NCBI GenBank assembly: GCA_946623755.1
Contig: CAMORK010000021.1
Coordinates: forward strand, 1-37,740
Length of the DNA: 37,740 nucleotides
Origin: an uncultured Butyrivibrio sp.
GTDB lineage: Bacteria > Bacillota > Clostridia > Lachnospirales > Lachnospiraceae
Direction of reading: 5' to 3'
The notes beneath the pieces are model-generated. The model made no database searches. It was not told the origin of the DNA and saw only the letters and a list, made by a program, of their open reading frames with translations. Both the position numbers and the translations under genes were made by a program. Position 1 is the stretch's first letter. Each line of letters opens with the position of its first letter. Shown here one piece after another: positions 8,358 to 29,016 of this stretch.

Positions 8358-9989
8358 TTAAAAGTTCATAGCTGCGATGTAGTCCTCATCGAACCCATCC
8401 ATGGTTGCAAGCTCGGTAAGCTGAGCCTTCTCCTTAATTAGATCCAGCCCGGCCGAAGCATCCGCTTCTGCCTCCCATCCCGAGAGCACGCAGGCTGTAT
8501 ACTCTGCAGCCCCCTTGAGTGCTGAATTTCCGATTGCTATTATCTTACCATTAAACTCCCTCGGAAACATATGTAATTCTTCTACATTTTCTGGTGTTAT
8601 TTTACTTCCAAATCCTCCGGAAATATACACTTTATCAGGAATTTTTCCATCAAGGAGAGTTTTGGCTCCGGTATATATTGCCGCCTTTGCCAGCTGTACA
8701 TTTCTGATGTCGCTCTGCAAAAGCCTTATCCTGCCGTCATCAGTCAGCGGAAATCCCTCATCGAAGTACTCCTCTGTCAAAAGACCTGTCTCATCAACCA
8801 GCCCTGTTCTCACAAGCTCAGAAACTGCCTCCATGACACCTGTTCCGCAGATGCCGATAGGTTCTGCTCCTCCGATGGTGTCTATGATCACCCGGCGGTT
8901 TTGGCCTGTGCCATTTATTCTGACGTGGCAGATAGCTCCGGGAACAGATGCTACTCCGCAGTTTATCCCGCCCGCCTCAAATACAGGCCCCGCAGCGGTT
9001 GAAGTGACATGCAGGTCCTCACCGTCAAAAAATGCCATCTCTCCGTTGGTTCCAAGATCCAGAAAAAAGAACTTTTCATCCTTGTTCAGGTCCAGAGTAA
9101 AGAGTCCTGCTACGATGTCAGCACCGACAAATGCAGAGATTCCGGGGAGGACTGTCAGGCTTATGTCGGATATATTATCAAGCAATATGTCTGAAAGCAT
9201 CTGCTCTTTCTGCAAATATTCAGCGGTGTACGGGTACTTGCCAAGGCTTGCCGCATCTCTTCCTGCAAGGAGATACAGCATTGTTGTATTGCCGGTTATT
9301 GTTATGGCCTTGAGGTCGGGTAACTTACCCGGACAGGTTATGTTGTGGGCCTTCGTAAGGTCTTTAATCAAGTTCTCTATATCTGTGACCACGGCCTTTC
9401 GAAGAGCTTCTCTTGTCTCTTCATCCTCTGATGCGGCAATTCTTGATATGACGTCTGCTCCGTAGCGGCGCTGAGAATTGACGCAGCTTGATGTTGCTAT
9501 TACTTTGTATCCGCTCCCTGTGCTCTGTATCAAGGCCGCAGCTATTGTGGTCGTACCAAGGTCGATGGCAATGCCGTAAGCGCCTTCTGCTTCGGCTTCA
9601 TTGCTCCCTGATGGTTCCGGGATATCTGTTTGCATTCCGGCATCCGGCATCTCATTATCATTTAATGTCAATGCCGACATTCCCTGCTCCTTAAGGCTTC
9701 CGATAAGTTCTACTTCACAGTCCTCATATATTACGGTCCTGCAGAGGATCCTGATTCCCTGCTTTGTCTCTTCCTCAGTCAGGAACATCTCCTCATAGCT
9801 TCCGGGGGTTGGGGCACCACTCAGGAACTTTATCCTGCATCTTCCGCACCTTGCTCTGCCTCCGCAGGGAAGAGCATACTTCACCCCCGCCCTGTCCAGG
9901 ACAGCCTTCAGCCTCTCTCCCTTGGTGGCAGCGATGGTCTGCACTTTTCCATATTCATTTATGGTAACCGTGATCTCTTTTGCCTTCAT
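8358..9989 (-). CDS. ASKHA-domain [2Fe-2S] protein, corrinoid-activator (RACo/DUF4445) family
   Basis: A 543-aa protein. The N-terminus is a plant-type [2Fe-2S] ferredoxin domain with ligands C42, C48, C51 and C83 (C-x5-C-x2-C pattern). An ASKHA ATPase domain starts at GIAIDLGTTT (about residue 139), with phosphate loops DLGTNGEMAF and GGFGSK. Family members (RACo, RamA, COG3894) use ATP to reduce the cobalt of corrinoid proteins back to Co(I). This copy lacks the C-terminal two-cluster ferredoxin of RamA. No corrinoid protein or methyltransferase is in the window, so the partner is unknown. The ribosome site is weak. It heads the operon that continues into the sugar importer. Confidence 0.85.
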   Translation of the reverse strand: MKAKEITVTINEYGKVQTIAATKGERLKAVLDRAGVKYALPCGGRARCGRCRIKFLSGAPTPGSYEEMFLTEEETKQGIRILCRTVIYEDCEVELIGSLKEQGMSALTLNDNEMPDAGMQTDIPEPSGSNEAEAEGAYGIAIDLGTTTIAAALIQSTGSGYKVIATSSCVNSQRRYGADVISRIAASEDEETREALRKAVVTDIENLIKDLTKAHNITCPGKLPDLKAITITGNTTMLYLLAGRDAASLGKYPYTAEYLQKEQMLSDILLDNISDISLTVLPGISAFVGADIVAGLFTLDLNKDEKFFFLDLGTNGEMAFFDGEDLHVTSTAAGPVFEAGGINCGVASVPGAICHVRINGTGQNRRVIIDTIGGAEPIGICGTGVMEAVSELVRTGLVDETGLLTEEYFDEGFPLTDDGRIRLLQSDIRNVQLAKAAIYTGAKTLLDGKIPDKVYISGGFGSKITPENVEELHMFPREFNGKIIAIGNSALKGAAEYTACVLSGWEAEADASAGLDLIKEKAQLTELATMDGFDEDYIAAMNF

Positions 9990-17413: not shown

Positions 17414-19477
17414 TCAGATCTTCATAGCTATATCCCATGCTCCCCAGATAGCTGAACGAATATTTCCAACCTTCTGGCAATCTCCCAGAAGATGTACGTT
17501 CTTGGCTGCCTGAATAAGAGGAATAGGATGATAACCAACCGACATGATTACATTGTCAGCAGGAAGCGTAACTACTCTGCCATCCTTTAGGTTAACTTCA
17601 ACACTCTTTTCATTAATCTGCTTAACCCCTGCATTGAGATATACAGGAACCTTATTGGTCTTGAAGCAGTCACGGAGGTAACTAGTGTTGGCAAGACACA
17701 TATTCTTAACTGCAATAAGGTCATCCTTCATCTCAACAATCTGAGGGTTCTTGCCCTTTCTGAACAGATCAAGTGCAATCTCGCAACCTGTAAGTCCACC
17801 ACCGATAATAACAACATCATTACCTACGGACTTCTTGCCAAGAAGGTAATCTGTGGCATCCATAGCATACTCTGCTGCTCCCGGAATCGGGATCTTGTTG
17901 GCTTCAGCTCCTGTTGCGATGATATATTCATCAGCTGACGGCAGTGAATCAGGTCTTACTTCATAGTTGAAGTGGATCTTTACACCGAGCTTTTTGAGCT
18001 GGTGCTTCTGCCAGGCAATGAGCTGTTTATCCTTCTCTTTGAACTCAGGAGCTGCTGCAGCGATAAATACGCCGCCAAGCTCACCGGTCTTCTCATAGAT
18101 TTCAGGCTGATGTCCGCGAAGAGCAAGGATTCTTGCTGCTTCCATACCACCTACACCGCCGCCGATGATGGCAACCTTCTTGGGTGAATCGGTAGGCTTA
18201 ACTCTGTATTTCCTGGACTGCATGCTGCGTGGGTTGACCGCACACCTACACATTCCTGCGGACTCAGAAAGATCCTGATCATTGGCTGTTCCATTGTGTT
18301 TGGTCAGGTTAAAGCAAGCTGAGTGACAGCAGATACATGGACGAATCTCTTCTTCCATGCCTCTCTTTAACTTGGATACCCACTTAGGATCAGCAAGGAA
18401 CTGCCTTCCGACAGCCATGGCATCGATGCCGCCTTCTCTGATGGCTGCTGCTCCGACATCGGGTTCCATCTTACCTGCACATACAACAGGAATATCAACG
18501 AACTTCTTGATGTGCTCTACATCTGCAAGGTTACAGTTCTGTGGCATATACTGCGGTGGATGTGCCCAGTACCATGCATCATAGGTTCCGTTGTCACAGT
18601 TGAGCATATCGTAGCCTGCATCCTGAAGGTACTTGGCTGCGCGCTCGGACTCTTCCATGTCTCTTCCGATCTCTTCAAAGTCCTCACCAGGCATAGCTCC
18701 GTACTGGAACGCCTTGGTCATGGACCTTACGGAATATCTTAGAGAAACAGGATAGTCTCTCCCACATTTCTTCTTGATCTCTTTTACAATCTCTACTGCG
18801 AAACGATAACGGTTCTCAAAAGATCCGCCGTAGTCATCAGTACGCTTGTTGGTGTACTTAAGTGTGAACTGGTCAAGGAGGTATCCCTCGTGAACAGCAT
18901 GCACTTCGACACCGTCAACTCCTGCTTCCTTACACAGCCTTGCTGTCTCTCCGAAAGCATAGATGATGTCCTTGATTTCTTTTTCTGTGATGGCACGTGT
19001 TGTAACGTCATCAGCCCAGCGGTTAGGAAGAACTGAAGGCGCTGCTGTAAGGTACTCAGCATCGATATAAGGCTTAGCAAGTGTGTTAAGAGCCTTATTC
19101 TTGGCAAGCATTGCAAGAGGTGCTGTCAGAGCAAAAGACCTGCCGAATCCGGCGGTCATCTGAACGAACATCTTGGCTCCGGTAGCATGGAGTTCATCCA
19201 TGAAATCAGCCAGCTCACTGAATTTGCGCTTGTTCTGATATAGCCACTTGCCGCCCAGCATGTCTTTTACCGGTGCGATTCCGGGAATGACAAGACCGCA
19301 ATCATGCTTGGCAATCTTCAAAAGAAGCCGTGCTGCCTCTTTGTCGAAATGGCTTCCGCCTGGTTCCATCCAGCCGAAGATACATGTGCCACCCATGGGC
19401 GCCAACACAATCCTGTTCTTGATCTCAAGATTGCCAATCTTCCATGGGGTGAACAGTGATTCATATTCCTGTTTCAT
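17414..19477 (-). CDS. OYE-type NADH:flavin oxidoreductase with [4Fe-4S] (2-enoate reductase family)
   Basis: A 687-aa enzyme. An N-terminal TIM-barrel FMN domain starts YESLFTPWKIGNLEIKNRIV. A [4Fe-4S] motif C381-x2-C384-x3-C388 with a later C412 (before AVNP) follows, then FAD (GGGVGG, about 438-444) and NAD(P)-binding (GGGLTG) Rossmann domains. I start at ATG 19477, which has GAAAGGA about 9 nt upstream, rather than the in-frame TTG at 19495. Relatives reduce enoates or bile-acid enones (FldZ, BaiCD/BaiH, DienoylCoA reductase). It is last in the nickel/dehydratase-like operon and may supply or accept electrons there; the substrate is unknown. Confidence 0.9.
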   Translation of the reverse strand: MKQEYESLFTPWKIGNLEIKNRIVLAPMGGTCIFGWMEPGGSHFDKEAARLLLKIAKHDCGLVIPGIAPVKDMLGGKWLYQNKRKFSELADFMDELHATGAKMFVQMTAGFGRSFALTAPLAMLAKNKALNTLAKPYIDAEYLTAAPSVLPNRWADDVTTRAITEKEIKDIIYAFGETARLCKEAGVDGVEVHAVHEGYLLDQFTLKYTNKRTDDYGGSFENRYRFAVEIVKEIKKKCGRDYPVSLRYSVRSMTKAFQYGAMPGEDFEEIGRDMEESERAAKYLQDAGYDMLNCDNGTYDAWYWAHPPQYMPQNCNLADVEHIKKFVDIPVVCAGKMEPDVGAAAIREGGIDAMAVGRQFLADPKWVSKLKRGMEEEIRPCICCHSACFNLTKHNGTANDQDLSESAGMCRCAVNPRSMQSRKYRVKPTDSPKKVAIIGGGVGGMEAARILALRGHQPEIYEKTGELGGVFIAAAAPEFKEKDKQLIAWQKHQLKKLGVKIHFNYEVRPDSLPSADEYIIATGAEANKIPIPGAAEYAMDATDYLLGKKSVGNDVVIIGGGLTGCEIALDLFRKGKNPQIVEMKDDLIAVKNMCLANTSYLRDCFKTNKVPVYLNAGVKQINEKSVEVNLKDGRVVTLPADNVIMSVGYHPIPLIQAAKNVHLLGDCQKVGNIRSAIWGAWDIAMKI

Positions 19478-19495
19478 TTTGGCAATTCCTTTCAA

Positions 19496-20212
19496 TTATT
19501 TTTTATTCTTCCCAAGATGCAGCTCGCGCATTCCCTCGACCTCGTCACACACAGGCTTCATGCTGCAATGACCGCAGTCAGTTGGCAGTCCGTCCAGAAT
19601 GTGAGTCAGTGTCCTGGTAATTGCATCGACTTTATCCGCATTTGGTAAAAGAGCTTCAACCAGCTCCTTTTCTGTGATGAAAATAACCCTTACCTTCTTT
19701 ACCTGCTCAAGTTCCTTGTACTTAGCAATATAAGCAGCTCCAACTCTTGCAAAGCTTATACCCTGCTTAAGGGCGCCTCTTGCAATCCTGACCTGCTCCT
19801 GATTGCTCTGGGAGGATACTCTGACCATGTACCCTTCAGGAAAAACATGATATCTGACGAACTCCAGATTTCTTATGGCCTGAAAAGCCTTCTCCTGGTC
19901 CTGATCCTCTCCCAGATCACCGGTCTCAAGGATGACGATTCTGGCAAAAGCCGTTCCGCTGCTTATCTCGGAAATGTCTTTTCCGTAAACAACGACCTCA
20001 TCCTGAGACACCTTGCCTGAAGTTGTAACACAGGTATAATTCACCGAAGGAAGCCCTGCTCCGCCAAGCTCAAGCGCTGCATCTCTCTGCATGATAAACT
20101 CGGTGTTTTCAAGGCACTTCCAGGGAGATGTCTTTTCATAGGAAAAAACCCTTCCCTGCGCCTTATCAAGCTCCTCCAGGGTCACATCAATCAAATTATC
20201 ATATAGCTTCAT
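19496..20212 (-). CDS. stand-alone acetyl-CoA-synthase (CdhC/AcsB) middle-domain-like protein
   Basis: A 238-aa protein. From memory of Moorella acetyl-CoA synthase, the stretch 40-190 follows the order of its central domain. The matching segments are 'LELGGAGLPSVNYTCV', 'VVVYGKDISEISSGTAFARIVIL', 'FVRYHVFPEGYM..R' and 'ARGALKQGISFARVGAAYIAKYKELEQVKKV'. It then ends with C213-x2-C216-x5-C222 and DEVEGMRELHLG. That is where ACS begins its A-cluster ligands (C-x2-C-x8-C); the later Ni-binding CGC is absent. So it could bind a cluster or metal but not catalyse as ACS. It lies 18 nt before the flavoprotein gene. The family assignment should be verified by profile search. Confidence 0.7.
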   Translation of the reverse strand: MKLYDNLIDVTLEELDKAQGRVFSYEKTSPWKCLENTEFIMQRDAALELGGAGLPSVNYTCVTTSGKVSQDEVVVYGKDISEISSGTAFARIVILETGDLGEDQDQEKAFQAIRNLEFVRYHVFPEGYMVRVSSQSNQEQVRIARGALKQGISFARVGAAYIAKYKELEQVKKVRVIFITEKELVEALLPNADKVDAITRTLTHILDGLPTDCGHCSMKPVCDEVEGMRELHLGKNKK

Positions 20213-20226
20213 AAAACTGTCTCCAA

Positions 20227-20394
20227 TCAGAACTTAATGTCCGCTTTCTTGCGGTCAAATATCTTGTTAACCTGGGTATATGCCCAGGCCATGAGCTTCT
20301 GATCCAGATTCCAGAAATATATGACAAAGAGTATCCCTGTGACAATGGTAAGAATCTTTATTATTTTGAAAATAATCTTTATAGTCTTACTCAT
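20227..20394 (-). CDS. small single-helix membrane protein, cassette-associated
   Basis: A 55-aa ORF, MSKTIKIIFKIIKILTIVTG then ILFVIYFWNLDQKL and a basic tail ending DIKF. It has one membrane helix (about 11-28) preceded by lysines. It sits in the 205-nt gap between the activase and the ACS-like gene. It is clearly related to the 71-aa protein at 28263-28478 in the partner operon: both begin MSK-x2-K, then GILF, then a YF/YY aromatic pair and a LDxK motif. That paralogy is the best evidence that it is real. It may be a membrane tether for the complex (inference). Confidence 0.75.
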   Translation of the reverse strand: MSKTIKIIFKIIKILTIVTGILFVIYFWNLDQKLMAWAYTQVNKIFDRKKADIKF

Positions 20395-20416
20395 CCTTAA
20401 TAAGTCCTTTCACTTA

Positions 20417-21211
20417 TTACTTGGCAAGGCCCTTCTGTCTTGCATACTCAGCAGCTCCAAGTGCTCCCATAAGCTGAGGATCAATAGAAAGATCAACAAC
20501 CTTGAGCTTAAGTACCTGCTCAATGGCAGCCTTAAGTCCGGCATTCTTAGCGCATCCGCCTGTAAGAGTAATTGAATCTGTAGCGCCTGCTTTCTTGGAC
20601 ATTACAAAGCATCTCTTAGCAACAGCCATCTCGATACCTGCTGCGATCTCGTCCATAGGCTTTCCTTCACCAACAAGAGTGATAACCTCAGACTCTGCGA
20701 AAACTGTACACTGTGCTGTGATAGGAATAACGTTCTTGGCTGAGAGTGAGAGATTTGAGAACTGCTCAAGACTCATCTCGAAAGAACGAGCCATGGCCTC
20801 GAAGAAACGTCCTGTTCCTGCAGCACACTTATCGTTCATGGCAAAGTTCTTAACTGTTCCGTCTGTATCAATTGAAATACCCTTAACGTCCTGACCACCG
20901 ATATCGATGATAGCCTTAACTGAAGGGTTTGTTACATGTACGCCCATTGCGTGGCATGAGATCTCAGAAATGTTCTCATCAGCAAAAGGAACCTTGTTAC
21001 GTCCGTATCCTGTACCGATGAGGTACTCAAGATCCTTGGAACTATTAAGTCCATCAACCTGATCTATTACTTCCTTCATGGCAATCTCTGCAGATTCCTG
21101 AGCAATGATCTTGCTCTTTACAGTTGTTCCTGCAACCATCTTGCCTGTCTCATCAACAATTACCGCTTTTGTATATGTTGATCCTACGTCACATCCACCG
21201 AAATATTTCAT
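20417..21211 (-). CDS. 2-hydroxyacyl-CoA dehydratase-type ATP-dependent activase (BcrAD/HgdC family)
   Basis: A 264-aa ASKHA ATPase. It has GGCDVGSTYTKAV (phosphate 1), DIGGQDVKGI (about 103-112), C129 in NDKCAAGTGRF, C168 in TAQCTVFAESEV, and GGCAKN. C129 and C168 from each monomer would hold the [4Fe-4S] cluster at the dimer interface. The family performs ATP-driven, very low-potential electron transfer to dehydratases, benzoyl-CoA reductase or double-cubane proteins. AGGAGGG precedes the ATG. It is the only activase in the window, so it probably serves both dehydratase-like pairs. Confidence 0.92.
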   Translation of the reverse strand: MKYFGGCDVGSTYTKAVIVDETGKMVAGTTVKSKIIAQESAEIAMKEVIDQVDGLNSSKDLEYLIGTGYGRNKVPFADENISEISCHAMGVHVTNPSVKAIIDIGGQDVKGISIDTDGTVKNFAMNDKCAAGTGRFFEAMARSFEMSLEQFSNLSLSAKNVIPITAQCTVFAESEVITLVGEGKPMDEIAAGIEMAVAKRCFVMSKKAGATDSITLTGGCAKNAGLKAAIEQVLKLKVVDLSIDPQLMGALGAAEYARQKGLAK

Positions 21212-21265
21212 TTTAAAAAATCCCTCCTAAAAAAAGTTAACTTATTTTATTGCTGGTGATATACG

Positions 21266-21390
21266 CATGGCTCCGCTTCACTCCCGCCATGCTTCAGCCA
21301 TTTGGAATCCGCACTACCGCGCTACTTCCTCATGTCTGTTCGGTCTTCAAGGTCATGTAAATTATCATGCAAGCATGAAATTTCCATGAC
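21266..21390 (-). repeat. two hairpins in the 193-nt gap upstream of the activase
   Basis: 21352-21390 forms an imperfect inverted repeat (GTCATGtAAATT..CATGC / GCATG.AAATTtCCATGAC). A second pair, GCATGGC/GCCATGC, flanks a GAGTGAAGCGGA loop near 21266-21292. Neither has a U-tract. They may be mRNA processing or stability elements that set activase level, or a dispersed intergenic repeat; the wording 'GGGAGTGAAGCGGAGCCATG' seems familiar from related genomes. Confidence 0.45.
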
Positions 21391-21404
21391 TTTGAATCCC
21401 TATA

Positions 21405-23180
21405 TCACCATGTGGTATCATCCTCGAAATCCAGCAGTGACGGATCAACCGGTTCTGCTTTCATAACTGTTCTCATGAACTCATTAAATTCAGATCTCAT
21501 ATCCTTACGGGATACGGTTCTTGGATCCATAAGGTCGTGACTGCACCAAAGAAGCTTGATGCCTCTCTCCCTTGCCTGATCCTCAAACAGTCCCTGAACA
21601 GTTGCCATGTTCTTGCAGGATACGTGCTGATACATAAGAACGAAATCTACATTCCATGCCTCACACTGTCTCCAGAGTTCTGTAACAACGTGATCATAAC
21701 CACCGTTGGTGTGCCTTCTCATTACCATTCTCTCATAAAGTCTTGAAAGATCCTTAAGAGCTTCTTCCTTGTCCTCTGTCTCGAGCGGCTTAGTGAAGTT
21801 CAGTGACTCCATCTCTACCAGGATATCTACGCCCCAGCAGTTGGCTGCCCAGTTTGAGAAGTTTGCGTAGTAGTGAGCCGGGATCGACCAAACGATCGCT
21901 CTGTACTTCATCTTGCCACGCCAAGCTTCGTCTCTGTTCTCATACGCCTTGAGCATTAACTTATCAACCTTCTTGAAGGTTGATATGATCCTCGGATCGA
22001 GACCTCCGTCCATCTCGTAGTTCCATTTACGGAACAGCTCGTAGCATGGTCCGATTAGCTGTGGATAAGGAGTCTGGTTGATCTCCCACTTCTGGAGCTC
22101 ATATTTGGTCTCTTCATTAAATCTCTTCATGGCAGCAAAGTAAGCATCCCAGTTCCACTTTGCTCCTGTGTTATCCTCGATAAACTTGATGCAGCCCTTA
22201 ATGTCTTTGACTGCAGCATCCATAATGGACTCGTCTTCATATCTGACCGGGAATGCCAGGTGATATGTAGGAAGATCCTTGAATCTGCGGCTTGTATAAG
22301 ATGATGCCATAACAGATCCGTCACAAGGCATTGAACTTGAAATGAAGCATGCTCCCATATGAGGAAGCGCATCCACAACCACCGCACCGCATTCTGATGA
22401 AGGAACGGGGCAGGTATCTGAAGGAAGTCCGTAGGACTCGATGGCATCAATATATGGCATACATGCCAGCTGATCAATCTCAGAAAGAAGGAATACAGGC
22501 ATCAGCTGATAAGGAATTCCTATGAGGTCAGGGAATCCTGCCATGATCTGTGACATTGTCATCTCATCAAAAAGAACTATCTTCTTGGAAAGGTCTGTGC
22601 TGTTACCAACCTTCTCATCTGCCTTCATAAGAAGAACCAGGTTCTCCGCAACATATCTGAATATTGCGTAGATGAGCTCGTGATGCATCTTGAGAGCCCT
22701 TCCTCTAAGTCCCATGGTGTTCTTGTCCATAAAGGAATGACAGCAGAAGTATGAGATCATCCATCTGTAATGTGTTGCTCCCATAAGGGCAGGTACCAGA
22801 TCCTTGGAGAAGGTTGCAAGGAGCATTCCCCACATTCTGGTCCACTCATAGAAATCAACTCCGGTATCCTTAATGCCTCTCCACTCGCGCCTTACTGTGG
22901 CCATCTTGCCGTTGGCGTAGAGCTTACCAAGCTGCTTCTCCCCGTTCAGTACAAGGTCTTTTACCTCTTCGGGAGACATATTTTTAAGGAGATTTACTTC
23001 ATGGGTGATACGCTTTTTGAGCCCCTTGGCGTCCTTGCCTGCTGCTGCGGCAACGTCCTTCCAGTCTGTCTCCTTGACCAGCTCTCCGACAATGCCGGCA
23101 ATCTCCTTCATATTCTCAGCCTGGGCTTTCCAGTCGATGTGGTCTTTAAGTCTGAAATTCTTGGGATCTATGTATTTCAT
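21405..23180 (-). CDS. 2-hydroxyacyl-CoA dehydratase-like large subunit (pair A)
   Basis: A 591-aa protein of the HgdA/HgdB/BcrB superfamily. It is much longer than usual (about 375-480 aa), owing to an N-terminal helical extension of about 130 residues. It is paralogous to the 563-aa protein at 26553-28244. Cysteines shared by both are C257 (DTCP), C286 (PCDGS) and C522 (VSCK), candidate cluster ligands. Also shared are NCWG and the C-terminal EPVDPSLLDFED-like end. Its ATG overlaps the stop of the small subunit gene (ATGA). The reaction is unknown. It could be a dehydratase, an aromatic reductase or a double-cubane protein. Confidence 0.88.
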   Translation of the reverse strand: MKYIDPKNFRLKDHIDWKAQAENMKEIAGIVGELVKETDWKDVAAAAGKDAKGLKKRITHEVNLLKNMSPEEVKDLVLNGEKQLGKLYANGKMATVRREWRGIKDTGVDFYEWTRMWGMLLATFSKDLVPALMGATHYRWMISYFCCHSFMDKNTMGLRGRALKMHHELIYAIFRYVAENLVLLMKADEKVGNSTDLSKKIVLFDEMTMSQIMAGFPDLIGIPYQLMPVFLLSEIDQLACMPYIDAIESYGLPSDTCPVPSSECGAVVVDALPHMGACFISSSMPCDGSVMASSYTSRRFKDLPTYHLAFPVRYEDESIMDAAVKDIKGCIKFIEDNTGAKWNWDAYFAAMKRFNEETKYELQKWEINQTPYPQLIGPCYELFRKWNYEMDGGLDPRIISTFKKVDKLMLKAYENRDEAWRGKMKYRAIVWSIPAHYYANFSNWAANCWGVDILVEMESLNFTKPLETEDKEEALKDLSRLYERMVMRRHTNGGYDHVVTELWRQCEAWNVDFVLMYQHVSCKNMATVQGLFEDQARERGIKLLWCSHDLMDPRTVSRKDMRSEFNEFMRTVMKAEPVDPSLLDFEDDTTW

Positions 23181-24385
23181 ACAACCACCTCCTGTGCCTG
23201 GGCATTCTTTCTGATTCGTTTAATCTCAAGCGCTTCAACAAACGCCTGGAAACGGGTTCTCAGCTGTCCCGAATTGTGTACATTGTAAGATCTGTCGATT
23301 GAGAGCGTCGGCCATCCGTACTCCTCTGAGAGGATATGGCTGGCAAGAGGTCGCTCAAACGCCCAGAAATCACAGTACTTCATCTGTTCAAAGATGATTC
23401 CGTCAGCGCCGTATTCCCTGGCGAGTCTGTCAGCAGTGTCTCTTCTCTGTCTGATCTTTTCCTCGGCCATGTATCTCGGGCACTCAGAAGTCATCATGTA
23501 ATGTCTTGCTATCTGCTTAACGATGTCTTCGTCATCGTTTAATTTGATCTCTTCTCTACCGGGGAAAGATCCGTAGCAGTATCTGTCGGCTACAACCATT
23601 GCTCCGGCCTCTTCTAAAAGCCTTGTAAGATCAAGATCGTCTACCTCAGATCCAACAACAGCTACCCTTGCTCTGAACCATGGCTTGGGATCCGGCTTTC
23701 TTTTTTTGATCTCCTCAAGAGTCTCTTTAAGGAGCGGTAAAATCTTGGCTGTCGGACAGCAGTAGCTCACAAGAGATATAACATGGAATTCATATCCTGT
23801 TATTGGTGGATTCTCCAGTTTTCTGAAGTTTCCTATCTCTGTAACAACTCTGCAGAGCTCATTGTGCTCCTCAACAGCTTTTCTGATGGCCTCGTCCGAT
23901 ACGTCGGTACCGAGTTTTTCGTGCATAACATCGAGAACTCTCAGGCGCATCTGTGTGGCAACCTGATCCACATTATAGCTTTCAACCTTGTACGGAACAT
24001 CTGTATGCGTAACAAAGAAGTGCGGTTTCTTGTTGCACTGAAGCACCTCCAAATGTTCATAACATCTGTTCATGGCTGAACATGCATCAACACCGGCTAC
24101 AGCATCCAGATACTCATAGCCGCCTTCAATGCCTCTCTCCAAAAGAGCTCTGGCAAACTCGCAGGTATAGTTGGACATGTAATATGTAGATATGTCTATC
24201 GAACCTGTACGCGGTGCACGCATACGTGTCGAGAAACAATTGTCTACATTCAGAAGCACTTCCGGCATGTGATAGCATGTGTATCCGATAGCATACTGCC
24301 CTTCTGCCTGTGCCTGCTTGACCAGATCATTAGCTGCATCATCCAGTAGATTCTCGAATGTGATTAGATGTTTTAGGTCCTGCAC
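23177..24385 (-). CDS. 2-hydroxyacyl-CoA dehydratase-like small subunit (pair A)
   Basis: A 402-aa HgdB/BcrC-type subunit. Cysteines at C37 (GYTCYHMPE), C75 (YTCEFARALLE), C102 (ACSAMNR) and C338 (QMKYCDFWAFE) have identical positions in the paralogue at 25360. The first three and the late KYCDFW motif match cluster-binding sites of the family. The C-terminal GQLRTRFQAFVE is also shared. It is translationally coupled to the large subunit (4-nt overlap) and lies 21 nt after the CooC-like gene. Confidence 0.92.
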   Translation of the reverse strand: MQDLKHLITFENLLDDAANDLVKQAQAEGQYAIGYTCYHMPEVLLNVDNCFSTRMRAPRTGSIDISTYYMSNYTCEFARALLERGIEGGYEYLDAVAGVDACSAMNRCYEHLEVLQCNKKPHFFVTHTDVPYKVESYNVDQVATQMRLRVLDVMHEKLGTDVSDEAIRKAVEEHNELCRVVTEIGNFRKLENPPITGYEFHVISLVSYCCPTAKILPLLKETLEEIKKRKPDPKPWFRARVAVVGSEVDDLDLTRLLEEAGAMVVADRYCYGSFPGREEIKLNDDEDIVKQIARHYMMTSECPRYMAEEKIRQRRDTADRLAREYGADGIIFEQMKYCDFWAFERPLASHILSEEYGWPTLSIDRSYNVHNSGQLRTRFQAFVEALEIKRIRKNAQAQEVVV

Positions 24386-24406
24386 GGTTACCTCCTTTCT
24401 ATACCT

Positions 24407-25168
24407 TTAATAGATTTTTAAATTTTTAAGAGCCTCGTCGGCGCCCTTTAATATTCCTGTTTCCTGAGGAAGTTCAAAAATATTTTTGCCTTCCACATCA
24501 TTCTCCGTCATGGCGTCATCCTGCGGAATGACGGATACAATCGGAACTCCTTCGATCTCATCTGTCTCAATCCTCTCAGGGAACAGTGCCCTGTTTACTA
24601 TGAGACCGATCTCATCGTACATAACCAGCTCACCGGCAACATCCTTGATAGTTCCGATGATCTTTAGACCCTTCTGGCTCTGATCCGATACGCACACAAG
24701 ATGTGTGACCTTCTCAAGGACTCTTCTGTTTATCTGCTCAATTCCTGCCTCGCCATCAATCACAACATAATCAAAATCATCCACAAGCATCTCGATGACC
24801 TTCTTGAGATATGTGTTGATTGCGCAATAGCAGCCGGCTGCCTCCGGCCTTCCTATCGCCAGAAAAGCAAAGCCTCTTTGCTCTGCCATGGCATCATAAA
24901 GCCTGAACTTAGCCTCAGCCAGAATATCCTGAGTATCCTTAAGCTTACCGGTTACATCCTCTGCAACCCTCTTTCGTATCTGATCCAGCGTCTCCGTGAC
25001 TTCTACGCCGAGAGCGACAGAAAGACCCACCGCCGGATCTGCATCAATAGCCAGAATCTTGGCGTCGGGTCTTTTTTCAGTAAGGAGTCTAACAATAGCA
25101 GCAGAAAGAGACGTCTTGCCAACGCCGCCTTTGCCCGCCAATGCGATAACAACAGTATTATGCGTCAT
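24407..25168 (-). CDS. CooC-like nickel-insertion ATPase
   Basis: A 253-aa MinD/ParA-class P-loop ATPase. It has deviant Walker A AGKGGVGKTS (signature K13), switch-like IDADPAVGL, and C113-Y-C115 in GRPEAAGCYCAIN, followed by VVIDGEAGIEQI. The CxC at this position is the hallmark of CooC, in which a dimer binds Ni/Zn and inserts nickel into CO dehydrogenase. It is the first gene of the minus operon, ahead of the dehydratase-like pair. No CO dehydrogenase gene is in the window, so the client may be another enzyme of this operon. Confidence 0.88.
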   Translation of the reverse strand: MTHNTVVIALAGKGGVGKTSLSAAIVRLLTEKRPDAKILAIDADPAVGLSVALGVEVTETLDQIRKRVAEDVTGKLKDTQDILAEAKFRLYDAMAEQRGFAFLAIGRPEAAGCYCAINTYLKKVIEMLVDDFDYVVIDGEAGIEQINRRVLEKVTHLVCVSDQSQKGLKIIGTIKDVAGELVMYDEIGLIVNRALFPERIETDEIEGVPIVSVIPQDDAMTENDVEGKNIFELPQETGILKGADEALKNLKIY

Positions 25169-25203
25169 AAATCCCCCTCGTAGAGTAAATTACCCCTGCC
25201 TAT

Positions 25204-25231
25204 ATTATAAAGGATTGTATAATTTCCACAA
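25204..25231 (-). promoter_or_regulatory. candidate promoter of the CooC/dehydratase-like operon
   Basis: On the minus strand TTGTGG (25226-25231) and TATAAT (25204-25209) are separated by 16 nt, ahead of an AGGGGG-like ribosome site before the CooC ATG. The same intergenic region must drive the plus operon; a TATTAT at 25271-25276 is a candidate -10. An AT palindrome GATATA-N6-TATATC (25262-25279) overlaps it and could be an operator. Confidence 0.45.
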
Positions 25232-25359
25232 GTAAATAATGATATTCTTTAAAACTTTGGTGATATATGATATTATATCCATATTGAACTTTAGTCATTT
25301 TAAGCAAAATGCCCACTGGTGATTTTGTTTTTATTCTACAAGAGGGGGAAACCAAATAC

Positions 25360-26547
25360 ATGAAAGATCTCGTGCATATCTTTGAGCTCGAAGACCTTTT
25401 GCAGGAAGCCAACAATCCGCTGGTTCGTCAGGCGAAAGCTGACGGCAGGCGCGCCCTTGGTTACACCTGCTACTTCATGCCGGAAGTTCTCTTGGACCTT
25501 CCGGGATGTTTTTCTGTGCGTCTTCGTGCACCGCGTAGTGGATCGCCTGATATGGCAACCTACTACATGACCAACCGTACCTGCATGTACGGGCGTTGCC
25601 TTTTAGAGAGGGCCTTGGAGGGAGGCTTTAACTTCCTTGACGCTGAAATGGCAACCGAAACCTGCACCGTTACCTGCAGATTCCAGGAGCATCTCCAGCT
25701 TATGGACATCATCAAGAATCCTGATTTCTTCTGCGAATTCACTGATGTTCCGTTCAAAAAAAATGAGAACTCCATTGATCACTACGAGAATCAGCTTAGA
25801 TTCCATGTTCTTGATAAATTAAAAGAGCACTTTGACATTGATACAAGTGATGAAGCTCTTTTAAAGGCAATTGAAGAACACAATGAAGTCTGCCGTCTCA
25901 TTCAGGAAATCGGCAGCTACAGAAAGCTTGATGAGCCTACCATCACAGGATGGGAGTTCTCCGTCATCCAGCTTTGCACTCTTGTTTGTCCCAAGTATCT
26001 TATCATTGATAAGCTTAGGGATATTGCAGAGCAGCTCAAGACAAGAAAGCCCGACGCCAAAAAGAACTACAGAGTCAAGGTTGTTCTTACCGGATCAGAG
26101 GAAGATGATCCTGACTTTATCAAGCTTATTGAGGAGTGCGGCGCTTTAGTTGTAGCTGATCGCTACTGCTACGGTTCACTTCCCGGAAGAGAAGAGATTG
26201 TGATAAAAGAGGGGGAGACACCTCTTAGAGCCATCGCCCGTCACTATCTTGAAACCAGCGAATGTCCACGTTTCATGGACCAGCACATCATGCGTCAGCG
26301 CAAACAATACCTGGCTGATATTGCCAAGGAATACAAAGCAGACGGTATCATCATTTCACAGATGAAATTCTGCGAGTACTGGAGCTATGAGCGTACAATC
26401 GATACTCTTATCATTCCAAGAGATTTCGGTTACCCCGTATGTTCTATTGAAAAAGAGTATGTCAACAACGCTGTCGGTCAGTTAAGGACCAGATTCCAGG
26501 CGTTTGTTGAGAGCATAGAGCTCAAGAAAATACAGAAGGAGGGCTGA
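25360..26547 (+). CDS. 2-hydroxyacyl-CoA dehydratase-like small subunit (pair B)
   Basis: A 395-aa paralogue of the 402-aa protein at 23177. I start at ATG 25360, not the in-frame ATG at 25309. A GAGGGGG ribosome site lies just before it, and from there C37, C75, C102 and C338 fall at exactly the same residue numbers as in pair A. Motifs include GYTCYFMPEVLL, MKFCEYWSYER and GQLRTRFQAFVES. It is the first gene of the plus operon, divergent from pair A, and 5 nt before its large subunit gene. Confidence 0.92.
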   Translation: MKDLVHIFELEDLLQEANNPLVRQAKADGRRALGYTCYFMPEVLLDLPGCFSVRLRAPRSGSPDMATYYMTNRTCMYGRCLLERALEGGFNFLDAEMATETCTVTCRFQEHLQLMDIIKNPDFFCEFTDVPFKKNENSIDHYENQLRFHVLDKLKEHFDIDTSDEALLKAIEEHNEVCRLIQEIGSYRKLDEPTITGWEFSVIQLCTLVCPKYLIIDKLRDIAEQLKTRKPDAKKNYRVKVVLTGSEEDDPDFIKLIEECGALVVADRYCYGSLPGREEIVIKEGETPLRAIARHYLETSECPRFMDQHIMRQRKQYLADIAKEYKADGIIISQMKFCEYWSYERTIDTLIIPRDFGYPVCSIEKEYVNNAVGQLRTRFQAFVESIELKKIQKEG

Positions 26548-26552
26548 GATAA

Positions 26553-28244
26553 ATGGCTATCGGATTTAAAGACATAAAAGCAAAATATCGCGAGCTCTTC
26601 GTCGTAGAAAAGAGCCCGGAAGAAAAGAACAAACCAAAAGACATAAAGAAAATGGCCAAGGACTTCTGGTATGGCAAGCCCCATGAAGAGAGGCGCCTTG
26701 GTGATCTCTATGTCGGCAACACAGGACTTTACAAGCACCGTGAGTGGCGTGGCGTAAAAGACACCATGTATTACTTCAACATGATCTGGCTTTACAACTA
26801 CGCTCACATGGTTACAGATATCATGAAATACGGCGGCGGTCCTCAGGGCGTTGTTACCTTCGCCAAGGGAACCATGAGATATCGCTGGATGGGCCAGACA
26901 TATCTCACTGTTATGCACTGGTTCGACAGAGGTCTTGAAGGTACAAGGGGCGAAGCCATGAAGGCTTCAGCATGGCACTACCGCGGAATGGTAAGCGAGA
27001 CCATCAGACAGTTCATGAGAATGTTTGAGGCTGACAAGAAGCTCAACGGCGGTGAAGAGAACGAAACCTGGAAAAAGACAATTGCCCACAACGAAACACT
27101 CAGCGGAAATATCTTTTACGGTTGGAGAGATCAGCTTGATGACGTTGCTCTTGAGATGATCCCCTACTTCGTTTCTGTACACGTAAACAACCACACTGTT
27201 CTTAACTATATCGACGCAGCGCAGTCCATCGGACTTCCGGCTGATCCTTGCCCAATGTGCCAGGCAGAGTACGGACTCTTTGTCCAGGATGATTACCCGG
27301 ATTACAGCCCTGTAATGCTGACAACCAACGAGGCCTGTGACGGATCCGTTGCAACATCTGTTCTTCAGGACTGGTTCTTAAACCGTCCTCTTTATGCGAT
27401 GCCACAGCCTATGCGCTATGACGATCCTCTCGTTCAGAAGAACTGTCAGAAAGAGATCGAGGGTGCATGGAAGTTTGTAGAAGAAAACTTCGGCATCAAG
27501 ATGGATTGGGATCAGTACGTTAAGCACGCACAGAACTTCAACAAGCTCACCGAGTTTGAGTGGGAGAAATGGGATGTTGCAGCCAACACTCCTTACTATC
27601 CTATCACCGGTGTCGCTCAGGCTCTTTACAGAATCTATTACTCACAGGATGGCGACAGACCCATCTGGCACGAGATGGATGCACATGTAAAACGTATCAT
27701 GGACAAGTGCGTCAAGAACAAAATCGAGACATTCCCAAAGACCAGACACCGTGCAATCGCATGGAGCTGCGCACCTCTTTACTACTCACACTGGTGCACA
27801 TGGGCTTACAACTGCTGGGGTATCAACTGCGTTATCAACATGGATTCACTCATGTTTGACCAGTACTTAAGGACCGATACATACGAGCACGCTCTTGAAG
27901 ATCTGTCCTGGTTCAACGAAAAGGCACCTATGCGTGCTATGGCTGTTGGCGGACATGAGCACATTCTTTCCCTGTTTGATTACATGGAGAGATTCAACTG
28001 CGATATGGTCATCATGTACGACCAGCTTCAGTGTAAGGGAATGCAGGGAATCCACGGAGTATTTGAGGATGAATTCCGCAAACGCAACATCCACGCAATC
28101 TGGGTTCCTCATGCTCTTCCGGACAAGAGAACAGTATCCCGCGCAGAAATCCGCGATATCATAAACGACTACATGACAACAGTTATGCGCGAGGAGCCAC
28201 TGGATCCTTCACTTCTCGATTTCGATGACGGTGGCAGCTGGTAA
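26553..28244 (+). CDS. 2-hydroxyacyl-CoA dehydratase-like large subunit (pair B)
   Basis: A 563-aa paralogue of the 591-aa pair A protein. Shared candidate cluster ligands are C233 (DPCP), C262 (ACDGS) and C494 (LQCK). An extra C236 makes CPMC here, while pair A has CPVPSSEC. This difference near the cluster suggests a changed active site or cluster type. The N-terminal extension (about 1-100) is shorter. The ending EPLDPSLLDFDD is shared. It is followed by the small membrane protein gene. The substrate is unknown. Confidence 0.88.
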   Translation: MAIGFKDIKAKYRELFVVEKSPEEKNKPKDIKKMAKDFWYGKPHEERRLGDLYVGNTGLYKHREWRGVKDTMYYFNMIWLYNYAHMVTDIMKYGGGPQGVVTFAKGTMRYRWMGQTYLTVMHWFDRGLEGTRGEAMKASAWHYRGMVSETIRQFMRMFEADKKLNGGEENETWKKTIAHNETLSGNIFYGWRDQLDDVALEMIPYFVSVHVNNHTVLNYIDAAQSIGLPADPCPMCQAEYGLFVQDDYPDYSPVMLTTNEACDGSVATSVLQDWFLNRPLYAMPQPMRYDDPLVQKNCQKEIEGAWKFVEENFGIKMDWDQYVKHAQNFNKLTEFEWEKWDVAANTPYYPITGVAQALYRIYYSQDGDRPIWHEMDAHVKRIMDKCVKNKIETFPKTRHRAIAWSCAPLYYSHWCTWAYNCWGINCVINMDSLMFDQYLRTDTYEHALEDLSWFNEKAPMRAMAVGGHEHILSLFDYMERFNCDMVIMYDQLQCKGMQGIHGVFEDEFRKRNIHAIWVPHALPDKRTVSRAEIRDIINDYMTTVMREEPLDPSLLDFDDGGSW

Positions 28245-28262
28245 TTTAAAGGGAGAGTAATT

Positions 28263-28478
28263 ATGAGTAAAATATTAAAATTTTTCTTCAAACTTTTAAG
28301 GATTGCATTACTTATTTATGGCATCCTCTTTGCAGTTTTTTATTATGATCTGGATGGCAAGTTCCTGTACTACATCTGGGAGCCTCTGATGATCAAACGC
28401 TTTGACAACATGAAGCGCCCCGATGCTACAGCAATGCCTTACTCAATGAAGGAAAGCGTAGAAGACACAAGTATTTAA
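28263..28478 (+). CDS. small single-helix membrane protein, cassette-associated
   Basis: A 71-aa protein starting MSKILKFFFKLLRIALLIYG, then GILFAVFYYDLDGKFLYYIW and a charged tail. It has one predicted membrane helix (about 12-29). It is a paralogue of the 55-aa protein at 20227-20394 in the opposite operon. A GGGAG ribosome site precedes the ATG. As last gene of the plus operon, 18 nt after the large subunit, it probably anchors or assists pair B (inference). The function is otherwise unknown. Confidence 0.8.
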   Translation: MSKILKFFFKLLRIALLIYGILFAVFYYDLDGKFLYYIWEPLMIKRFDNMKRPDATAMPYSMKESVEDTSI

Positions 28479-28487
28479 GCATGATAA

Positions 28488-28518
28488 AAGAGGTCATCGC
28501 AATTTGCGACGACCTCTT
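28488..28518. terminator. bidirectional intrinsic terminator
   Basis: AAAGAGGTCATCGCA / TGCGACGACCTCTT form a stem of about 14 bp with one mismatch (G-U on the minus strand). The loop is 3 nt and CTTTTTTCT follows on the plus strand. It separates the convergent pair B operon and the CooT-like gene. Confidence 0.8.
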
Positions 28519-28528
28519 CTTTTTTCTC

Positions 28529-28714
28529 TTATTCACAGTCAATCCTGATGACTCCGCCTGTCAGATCAACAAATGTAAGCTTACCCTTAAAGCTCTTTTT
28601 CTCACCCATAAGATCCGTGCAGACAACGTTGTCGCCATCAAAGGTTATGGTACTTACATACTCCATGATGGCCTCATCCGGCTTGGAGTTTTTGTAAACT
28701 GTAGAAAGACACAT
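28529..28714 (-). CDS. CooT-like small nickel-binding protein
   Basis: A 61-aa protein starting MCLSTVY. It has a beta-rich pattern, and 'FKGKLTFVDLTGGVIRIDCE' at the end matches CooT in length and plan. In Rhodospirillum rubrum CooT, the cysteine directly after Met1 is involved in nickel binding; C2 is present here. AGGAGG lies 7 nt before the ATG. It lies 23 nt after the His-rich gene on the same strand. Together with the CooC-like ATPase it points to nickel delivery in this neighbourhood. Confidence 0.82.
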   Translation of the reverse strand: MCLSTVYKNSKPDEAIMEYVSTITFDGDNVVCTDLMGEKKSFKGKLTFVDLTGGVIRIDCE

Positions 28715-28737
28715 ATAAAACCTCCTGTTTCCGTTCC

Positions 28738-29016
28738 TTAACCGATAAGCTCCAGAGCTTCCTTAAGGTTTTTATTTCCTTCGGAAAAGAGCTCTTTGGC
28801 TGCGGAAACCTTGGCTGCTGCCTCAGCATAGCCAAGGCTTTCAAGCTTATCTGCAAGCTTATCCAGCTCGTCTGCATGGCTGGTGTTGTGCTTGTAATTG
28901 TAGTCCAAAAGAGCTTTTACCTGCTCTTTGTTCTCCATGGGATGATCATGGTGGTGATGCTCGTGATCATGATGATCGTGATGATCATGGTCGTGATGAT
29001 GTTCATGCTCGCTCAT
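28738..29016 (-). CDS. His-rich metal-binding protein (CooJ-like in design)
   Basis: A 92-aa protein. Residues 4-25 carry 15 histidines alternating with Asp/Glu, an obvious Ni/Co/Zn-binding tract. A helical domain of about 60 residues follows (KALLDYNYKHNTSHADELDK ... KEALELIG). CooJ of R. rubrum is a His-rich nickel chaperone, but its His tract is C-terminal, so this is a functional analogy, not proven homology. It lies 12 nt after the phosphohexomutase gene and just before the CooT-like gene. Confidence 0.8.
   Translation of the reverse strand: MSEHEHHHDHDHHDHHDHEHHHHDHPMENKEQVKALLDYNYKHNTSHADELDKLADKLESLGYAEAAAKVSAAKELFSEGNKNLKEALELIG

Follow-up and report, generated by a model that had tools for sequence, protein, structure and literature searches.

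A gene cassette that brings nickel-chaperone families together with paired, double-cubane-type enzyme subunits is found in an uncultured Butyrivibrio-like rumen bacterium, and the same set is common to many of its gut relatives. The genes named here all lie at 17.4-29.0 kb of a 37,740-nucleotide stretch of DNA (contig CAMORK010000021.1 of assembly GCA_946623755.1), which is referred to, at its full length, as the window. In order of transcription, a minus-strand run encodes a CooC-family ATPase, the small (S1) and large (L1) subunits of a first HGD-D pair, an activase, a one-span membrane protein (TMa), a protein related to the middle domain of acetyl-CoA synthase (ACS; the protein is termed ACSm) and a flavoprotein. 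Divergent from this CooC-led run, the plus strand encodes a second pair and its membrane protein (S2-L2-TMb), and these are followed, on the minus strand again, by CooT and a histidine-rich open reading frame (ORF). Profile searches and ORFs recover every family that the initial annotation had named from the window; the two small membrane proteins that it had listed were both found, and cross matches and alignment add that TMa and TMb are related to each other, one such protein accompanying each S-L pair. The parts are known families. Among the matches listed in a literature search, no title or abstract describes the gene set, their combination, a Cys3His-bearing truncated ACS or the use of CooC and CooT without carbon monoxide dehydrogenase (CODH), and the words hydroxyacyl, dehydratase and activase are absent from the main text of a 2026 study of CODH genomic context (PMC13056359).

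The CooC-family ATPase (24407..25168, minus strand) carries a CxC motif, and the best PDB match of its family profile is CooC1 (3kje_A, 1.4e-20). S1 (23177..24385, minus; PF06050, 1.7e-89) has the ligand set of a double cubane, and L1 (21405..23180, minus; PF06050, 5e-32) resembles BzdO, its N-terminus being extended by about 155 residues of helical structure; the two genes overlap by 4 bases. They are followed by the BcrAD/HgdC-type activase ATPase (20417..21211, minus; PF01869, 3e-55; TIGR00241, 209 bits against a cut-off of 125), by TMa (20227..20394, minus), recognized as an ORF and by alignment with relatives, and by ACSm (19496..20212, minus), which matches CdhC (PF03598, 2.7e-10) over residues 38-184 only. 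The flavoprotein (17414..19495, minus) is of the old yellow enzyme (OYE) type, with FMN, Fe-S and FAD (PF00724, 4.7e-56; PF07992, 8.7e-34), and its true start is probably near 19477, because many relatives are 687 amino acids long; its best NCBIfam matches, the long form of bilirubin reductase (359 bits, cut-off 750) and BaiCD (340 bits, cut-off 825), were rejected as identities. On the plus strand are S2 (25360..26547; PF06050, 7.5e-86), whose ORF opens at 25309 and whose likely start is the ATG at 25360, L2 (26553..28244; PF06050, 1.4e-24), which falls in a separate clade from L1, and one-span TMb (28263..28478), with no Pfam family at 1e-8. CooT, a nickel-chaperone family member with a Met-Cys start (28529..28714, minus; PF10133, 3.5e-16), and the CooJ-like histidine-rich protein (28738..29016, minus), with a His-rich N-terminus, a small HNxHH domain and no Pfam family, complete the set. 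A plasmid search with L2 gave no match, and scans for promoters and terminators turned up no more than the average of shuffled sequence.

Relatives were collected through ACSm: of at least 474 matches in GTDB the best 80 were kept, and together with 13 stretches around matches in a 150-genome sample of the family they make up 93 loci. One place is represented twice (L015 and L064), as is one genome (G081 and G162), and several counts hold one duplicate; L072, with overlapping gene calls, is left out of the counts on 52 wide-flank loci, and the tally of OYE-type flavoproteins at these loci takes in weak matches of a GltD-like flavoprotein. Gene starts were called mechanically and genomes are often incomplete, the window's own genome (G000) being 60% complete. 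CooC-S-L-activase-TM-ACSm is contiguous and co-directional in 58 of the 67 loci that have at least 5.5 kb upstream, and of the nine exceptions two are re-ordered, one has a His-rich ORF in between and six are devoid of S and L. At the 52 wide loci, CooC is present in 50, S and L in 48 each, the activase in 50, the membrane protein in 51, and two S-L pairs in 35. Within the family sample ACSm occurs in 14 of 150 genomes, the window's own included, and L (alignment search, E of 1e-30 or better) occurs in the identical 14, a coincidence with a chance of about 6e-20 if the two were unrelated and kinship is ignored; eight genomes whose ACSm locus is without S and L were searched, and all eight carry L elsewhere. 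Because of this shared order, these coinciding genomes and these relocated L genes, the cassette behaves as a unit of inheritance, with a gene grouping that exceeds chance, and the proposal that the nickel genes and the dehydratase-like pairs would be conserved together is borne out. Among named genomes in the matches listed, Butyrivibrio sp. XPD2006 has the closest ACSm (97%). In a phylum sample the ACSm profile matches 12 of 398, two of them of ACSm size (the window's own and G342) and ten in frames of full-ACS size; it finds none in the same-genus genome G324 of that sample, so the cassette is patchy.

The S-L pairs carry the residues expected of low-potential reductases. Six cysteines of S (C37, C75, C102, C270, C302 and C338) are kept in 126 of 126 sequences and align, in order, with the double-cubane ligands Cys36, 73, 100, 263, 293 and 327 of BzdN, which the S family profile matches at 7.6e-35; S2 has the same six. 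In L, C257, C286 and C522 are likewise kept in 126/126, and in a HMMER alignment to the [4Fe-4S] ligands of BzdO C257 falls on C95, C522 on C380, and C286 on or next to C128. The catalytic His131 of benzoyl-CoA reductase (BCR), which stands three residues beyond Cys128, is not kept: C286 is followed by D287, G288 and S289 in 123, 119 and 123 of the 126. A fourth near-invariant cysteine, at L residue 448 (NCWG; 124/126), lies outside the three mapped ligands. The HGD-D fold, present in both S and L, is common to the (R)-2-hydroxyacyl-CoA dehydratases (HAD; HadBC, HgdAB), which also have one activase gene, as does the cassette. The activase keeps C129 and C168 in 13/13 relatives, which we take from HgdC to be the bridging-cluster cysteines, and scores 91 bits against a cut-off of 456 with the methanogenesis marker 15 model. 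The cassette differs from the dehydratases in the six-cysteine set of S, and the curated dehydratase models score far under their cut-offs (HadB 15.4 bits against 750; HadC 84.3 and 72.9 against 700). Since S carries the double-cubane ligand set, a low-potential reductase fits better than a dehydratase. An ordinary Stickland dehydratase was rejected or given low weight on the ligand set, the model scores and the lack of partner genes: as the initial annotation had stated, CoA-transferase and 2-hydroxyacid dehydrogenase genes are absent, none being found among the 30 window proteins scanned. A lactate operon at locus L015, discussed below, speaks the other way.

The 'ACS fragment' of that annotation is more precisely an ACS middle domain that ends after the A-cluster cubane motif in 93/93 loci, followed by a conserved Cys/His tail. 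Its Cys3His motif, C-x2-C-x5-C-x9-H, keeps the ACS cubane motif in part, and the N-terminal and C-terminal domains of ACS are both missing, the nickel-site domain with them. Predicted folds were obtained for ACSm and for L. The possibility that ACS is split, with a separate gene for its C-terminal domain at another place, was rejected, as PF19436 is matched in only one of 27 cassette genomes searched (G026), where it belongs to a full ACS. Nickel had been proposed to go either to a dehydratase-like protein or to the ACS-like protein; because the C-terminal domain is missing, the second destination, with ACSm receiving nickel for catalysis, seems less likely. It is most likely that ACSm serves as a shared scaffold acting on L subunits in trans, because the 14 family genomes carry a single ACSm match apiece against one to three matches of L, and because some loci are reduced to CooC-ACSm (L075, L088, L096). 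The same reduced loci, the smallest conserved pair, can be read as pointing to ACSm as the acting nickel enzyme: a minimal, CODH-free ACS-like site of the C-x2-C-x5-C-x9-H cluster plus nickel, for which S, L and the activase would be the reductive activator. The partly kept cubane motif agrees with such a site, and an ATP-driven activation complex with nitrogenase-like clusters is known for methyl-CoM reductase (MCR; available text of PMC12176620). We consider it improbable, as 26 of the 27 genomes are without a match to the ACS C-terminal domain, and the excess of L over the single ACSm in some family genomes suits a shared helper more than an only client.

The link to nickel is one of gene association, from which nickel use may be supposed. 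CooC has the motif GCYCxxN in 68/68 relatives and the deviant Walker A sequence GKGGVGKT in 12/12. At the 52 wide loci CooT is found in 32, the His-rich ORF in 27, all with CooT, and HypA in three, so that 35 have at least one of these. Of 41 called CooT ORFs, 38 have the Met-Cys sequence close to their start and the other three have it at a later same-frame start, and the His-rich ORF, which has no Pfam model, holds 5 to 27 histidines in the 12 relatives inspected out of 37. In G026, which has both the cassette and CODH/ACS, the CODH/ACS gene run itself starts with co-directional relatives of the His-rich protein (6e-10) and CooT (2e-11). CooT occurs in 20 of the 150 family genomes, 17 of which have CODH over cut-off; the three CODH-free ones (G000, G009, G081) all carry the cassette with CooT adjoining (p 5.9e-4 among CODH-free genomes). 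Another type of nickel chaperone, HypA, has its gene next to the cassette or next to an S-L unit in six loci (L016, L020, L021, L025, L156, L168), accompanied by HypB at L156 and a short HypB piece at L168; these loci also have a GltD-like Fe-S flavoprotein of 909-962 amino acids (464 at L168). NiFe hydrogenase and urease were rejected as HypA clients, neither family having a match in any of the six genomes, of which G139, G066, G181 and G182 are without CODH over cut-off and G148 and G056 have it. The statement that no CODH is present holds for the window's own 60%-complete genome, in which none was found, and is extended by 35 of 38 cassette genomes and 8 of 8 further ones without CODH over cut-off, for which reason CODH was rejected as a hidden client in this lineage. 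G148 has a CODH some 16 kb away from the cassette on the same contig (G148:C23), and shows no match to the ACS C-terminal domain.

Compared with the CODH/ACS maturation system (CooC, CooT, CooJ; available text of PMC6006190), the cassette shares a CxC-bearing CooC, a Met-Cys CooT, a His-rich protein and an ACS middle-domain homologue, and differs in the absence of CODH over cut-off from most of its genomes and in an ACS homologue stripped of its two outer domains. The same text counts nine characterised nickel enzymes, 111 CooT homologues and 85 CooT proteomes that also have CODH, and in the part available names no CooT client where CODH is absent; the cassette offers a testable candidate.

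We hypothesize, with moderate confidence, that the cassette encodes a membrane-tethered, ATP-driven reductase of the type of BCR or of the double-cubane cluster protein (DCCP), equipped with its own nickel maturation set. A flavoprotein (OYE-type here, GltD-like Fe-S elsewhere) would bring electrons from NAD(P)H; the activase, judging by its family, would use ATP to push them to a very low potential; they would then enter a putative [8Fe-9S] double cubane on the ligand set of S and pass to a putative open [4Fe-4S] site of L, which would reduce the substrate. CooC, with either CooT and the His-rich protein or HypA and HypB, may supply nickel. Most likely CooC and ACSm, a re-used ACS domain with a [4Fe-4S]-type motif, would build or load the metal site of L in trans, because one ACSm faces up to three L per family genome and CooC-ACSm is left where S and L are elsewhere. 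Pair 2 and further S-L units may be reductases for other substrates, or pair 2 may be an assembly scaffold. We read the cassette as a variant form within the BCR/HAD/DCCP family and possibly as a new nickel enzyme. More tentatively, and with considerable doubt, the open [4Fe-4S] site of L could itself hold nickel, receive ATP-activated electrons by way of the [8Fe-9S] double cubane of S and be built in trans by CooC and the ACSm scaffold, rumen and gut Clostridia using families of such membrane-tethered reductases on several substrates. As a nickel client, the cassette would bring together double-cubane reductase chemistry and nickel C1 enzyme chemistry in common rumen bacteria, and it shows an ACS domain that persists without CODH.

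One of the nearest characterised systems is the BZD-type class I benzoyl-CoA reductase (BzdNO), whose ligands the S and L cysteines match. The cassette differs in having a single activase gene instead of the BzdPQ dimer (available text of PMC11971306), in the L extension and the lost histidine, and in the added CooC, ACSm, nickel-chaperone and membrane-protein genes. The substrate is probably not benzoyl-CoA; the scan of window proteins found no benzoyl-CoA or aromatic pathway genes. DCCP and its reductase (6eno, 7yyl) share the double-cubane-type ligand set and, in the available text of PMC11971306, are also without an assigned physiological substrate; in the cassette, S and L have diverged and do not form a homodimer, and nickel and ACS-like genes are added. 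The methyl-CoM reductase activation complex (available text of PMC12176620) shares the idea of ATP-driven low-potential electrons reaching a nickel site through complex Fe-S clusters, a likeness of function only, its other proteins not having been searched for here.

Several observations weigh against a nickel-dependent reductase. The gene for lactate racemase LarA, a nickel enzyme (available text of PMC6006190), adjoins the cassette flavoprotein gene at the FE2018-type loci L015/L064, L060 and L061, with a piece in L052. This is five of the 111 fetched loci searched, one being the piece and two the same place, in a search that covered fetched loci and not whole genomes (the LarA group lies at 3-6844 in L015, the same place as in L064, at 13673-14986 in L060, 13438-14715 in L061 and 3-326 in L052). 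L015 has a whole lactate operon, with LarA, EtfA/EtfB-type proteins, an acyl-CoA dehydrogenase, an FAD-linked oxidase of lactate-dehydrogenase type and a lactate permease, parts of which recur in L060, L061 and L064, and its genome, G081, is among the three with CooT that are free of CODH. LarA therefore offers another nickel client at its loci, and the operon hints at a 2-hydroxyacid substrate. CODH is present in three of the 38 cassette genomes, and a two-piece, under-cut-off CODH in one of the eight more; 15 of 37, nine of them named Butyrivibrio and so close kin of the window's bacterium, show a short match to NiFe hydrogenase, in frames some 360-380 amino acids long, which is taken for Ech (complete in 47 butyrivibrio genomes according to the available text of PMC4478896). 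With CODH, NiFe hydrogenase or LarA in some cassette genomes, the chaperones could in many have another client. The structural model of L is weak, with a pLDDT below 50 around C257 and C286, ACSm is without the nickel-site domain, and the relatives, as the best 80 of at least 474 matches, are a biased sample whose figures ignore kinship. The low-potential reductase with nickel delivery that the initial annotation had put forward thus gains from the double-cubane set of S and from HypA at six loci, and loses from LarA as another client at FE2018-type loci.

LarA beside the cassette lowers the weight of both the nickel-matured reductase and the nickel-holding L site, and raises that of a 2-hydroxyacyl-CoA dehydratase, for example for lactoyl-CoA, with nickel serving only lactate racemase or other enzymes. 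The L015 operon also fits this enzyme, as do the HGD-D and activase families and the match of the HadC model to S. The double-cubane cysteines of S, the low dehydratase scores and the missing partner genes oppose it, the lactate run is seen in a single locus group, and by analogy with the Acetobacterium lct genes we take that run to fit a lactate-oxidation operon equally well; the dehydratase strikes us as a poor prospect.

Seventeen of the 52 wide loci have no CooT, His-rich ORF or HypA, and so no chaperone apart from CooC, as would be expected of a nickel-free ATP-driven reductase. CooC would there act on ACSm as a folding or Fe-S ATPase, ACSm would be a dedicated [4Fe-4S] electron carrier from flavoprotein to activase, and CooT and HypA would serve others, such as the lactate racemase that adjoins some cassettes. 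The ACSm gene does lie, in the window, between the activase-TM genes and the flavoprotein gene, and CooC of R. rubrum is not a tight nickel binder and may act on folding (available text of PMC6006190). We nevertheless regard the nickel-free reductase as rather unlikely: CooT accompanies the His-rich ORF at 27 of 27 wide loci, relatives of both open the G026 CODH/ACS run, two nickel-chaperone types are found beside the cassette, LarA reaches few loci, and CooC, CooT and CooJ of R. rubrum are not used for NiFe hydrogenase according to the same text. Even if lactate racemase is the nickel user, the cassette would still encode an undescribed double-cubane reductase with CooC and a truncated ACS.

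Further S-L units occur away from the cassette. The window's genome has a third S-L-TM unit (G000:C35:6009-8960, L128), which groups with the only pair that relatives at a greater distance have, and which has no catabolic neighbours that suggest a substrate. Outside the family sample, L is matched nine times in G181 and seven times in G182, in part by pieces (two of the seven in G182 are pieces of one gene; ACSm copies were not counted in either), and many of these matches stand alone as S-L or S-L-TM units whose neighbours differ. Extra units are flanked by TetR, GntR and OmpR-type regulators and assorted genes that give no substrate hint among 30 proteins scanned, and the regulators beside some of them suggest that the substrates are more than one. 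Across loci, the core cassette has no constant catabolic partner gene. The four largest neighbour clusters are nearly confined to Butyrivibrio loci, and the representatives of other clusters that were scanned belong to common families: ABC ATPases, histidine kinases, helix-turn-helix (HTH) proteins, EamA, MatE, EAL/GGDEF and Hsp90, with the exception of LarA (cluster 9: L015, L052, L060, L061, L064).

A Clostridiales-1 RNA (21255..21409, minus strand; Rfam RF01699, 98.8 bits) lies between L1 and the activase gene and overlaps the end of L1 in the sense direction. Such RNAs lie in sense at, or at most 5 bases from, the end of an L gene in six of 22 sources scanned, at five distinct places: the window, L036 (8799-8952), L045 (8803-8956), L064 (1872-2035, equal to L015 18292-18455) and L060 (1470-1635). 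They follow L1 in three sources and L2 in the others, and L028, the closest relative, has no match, its gap being 53 bases. The RNA looks like a repeated insertion at one kind of site and, being present in only some relatives, is probably not part of the mechanism.

At 8358-9989, some 7 kb away from the cassette, lies a RACo-type corrinoid reductive activator (PF14574, PF17651), also an ATP-dependent low-potential activator; six Butyrivibrio loci have parts of this neighbour, and the search found it in none of the remaining fetched loci, the flanks often being too short. A similar gene of 628-629 amino acids lies near the cassette in L097, L099 and L101, and the L097 copy is Hsp90.

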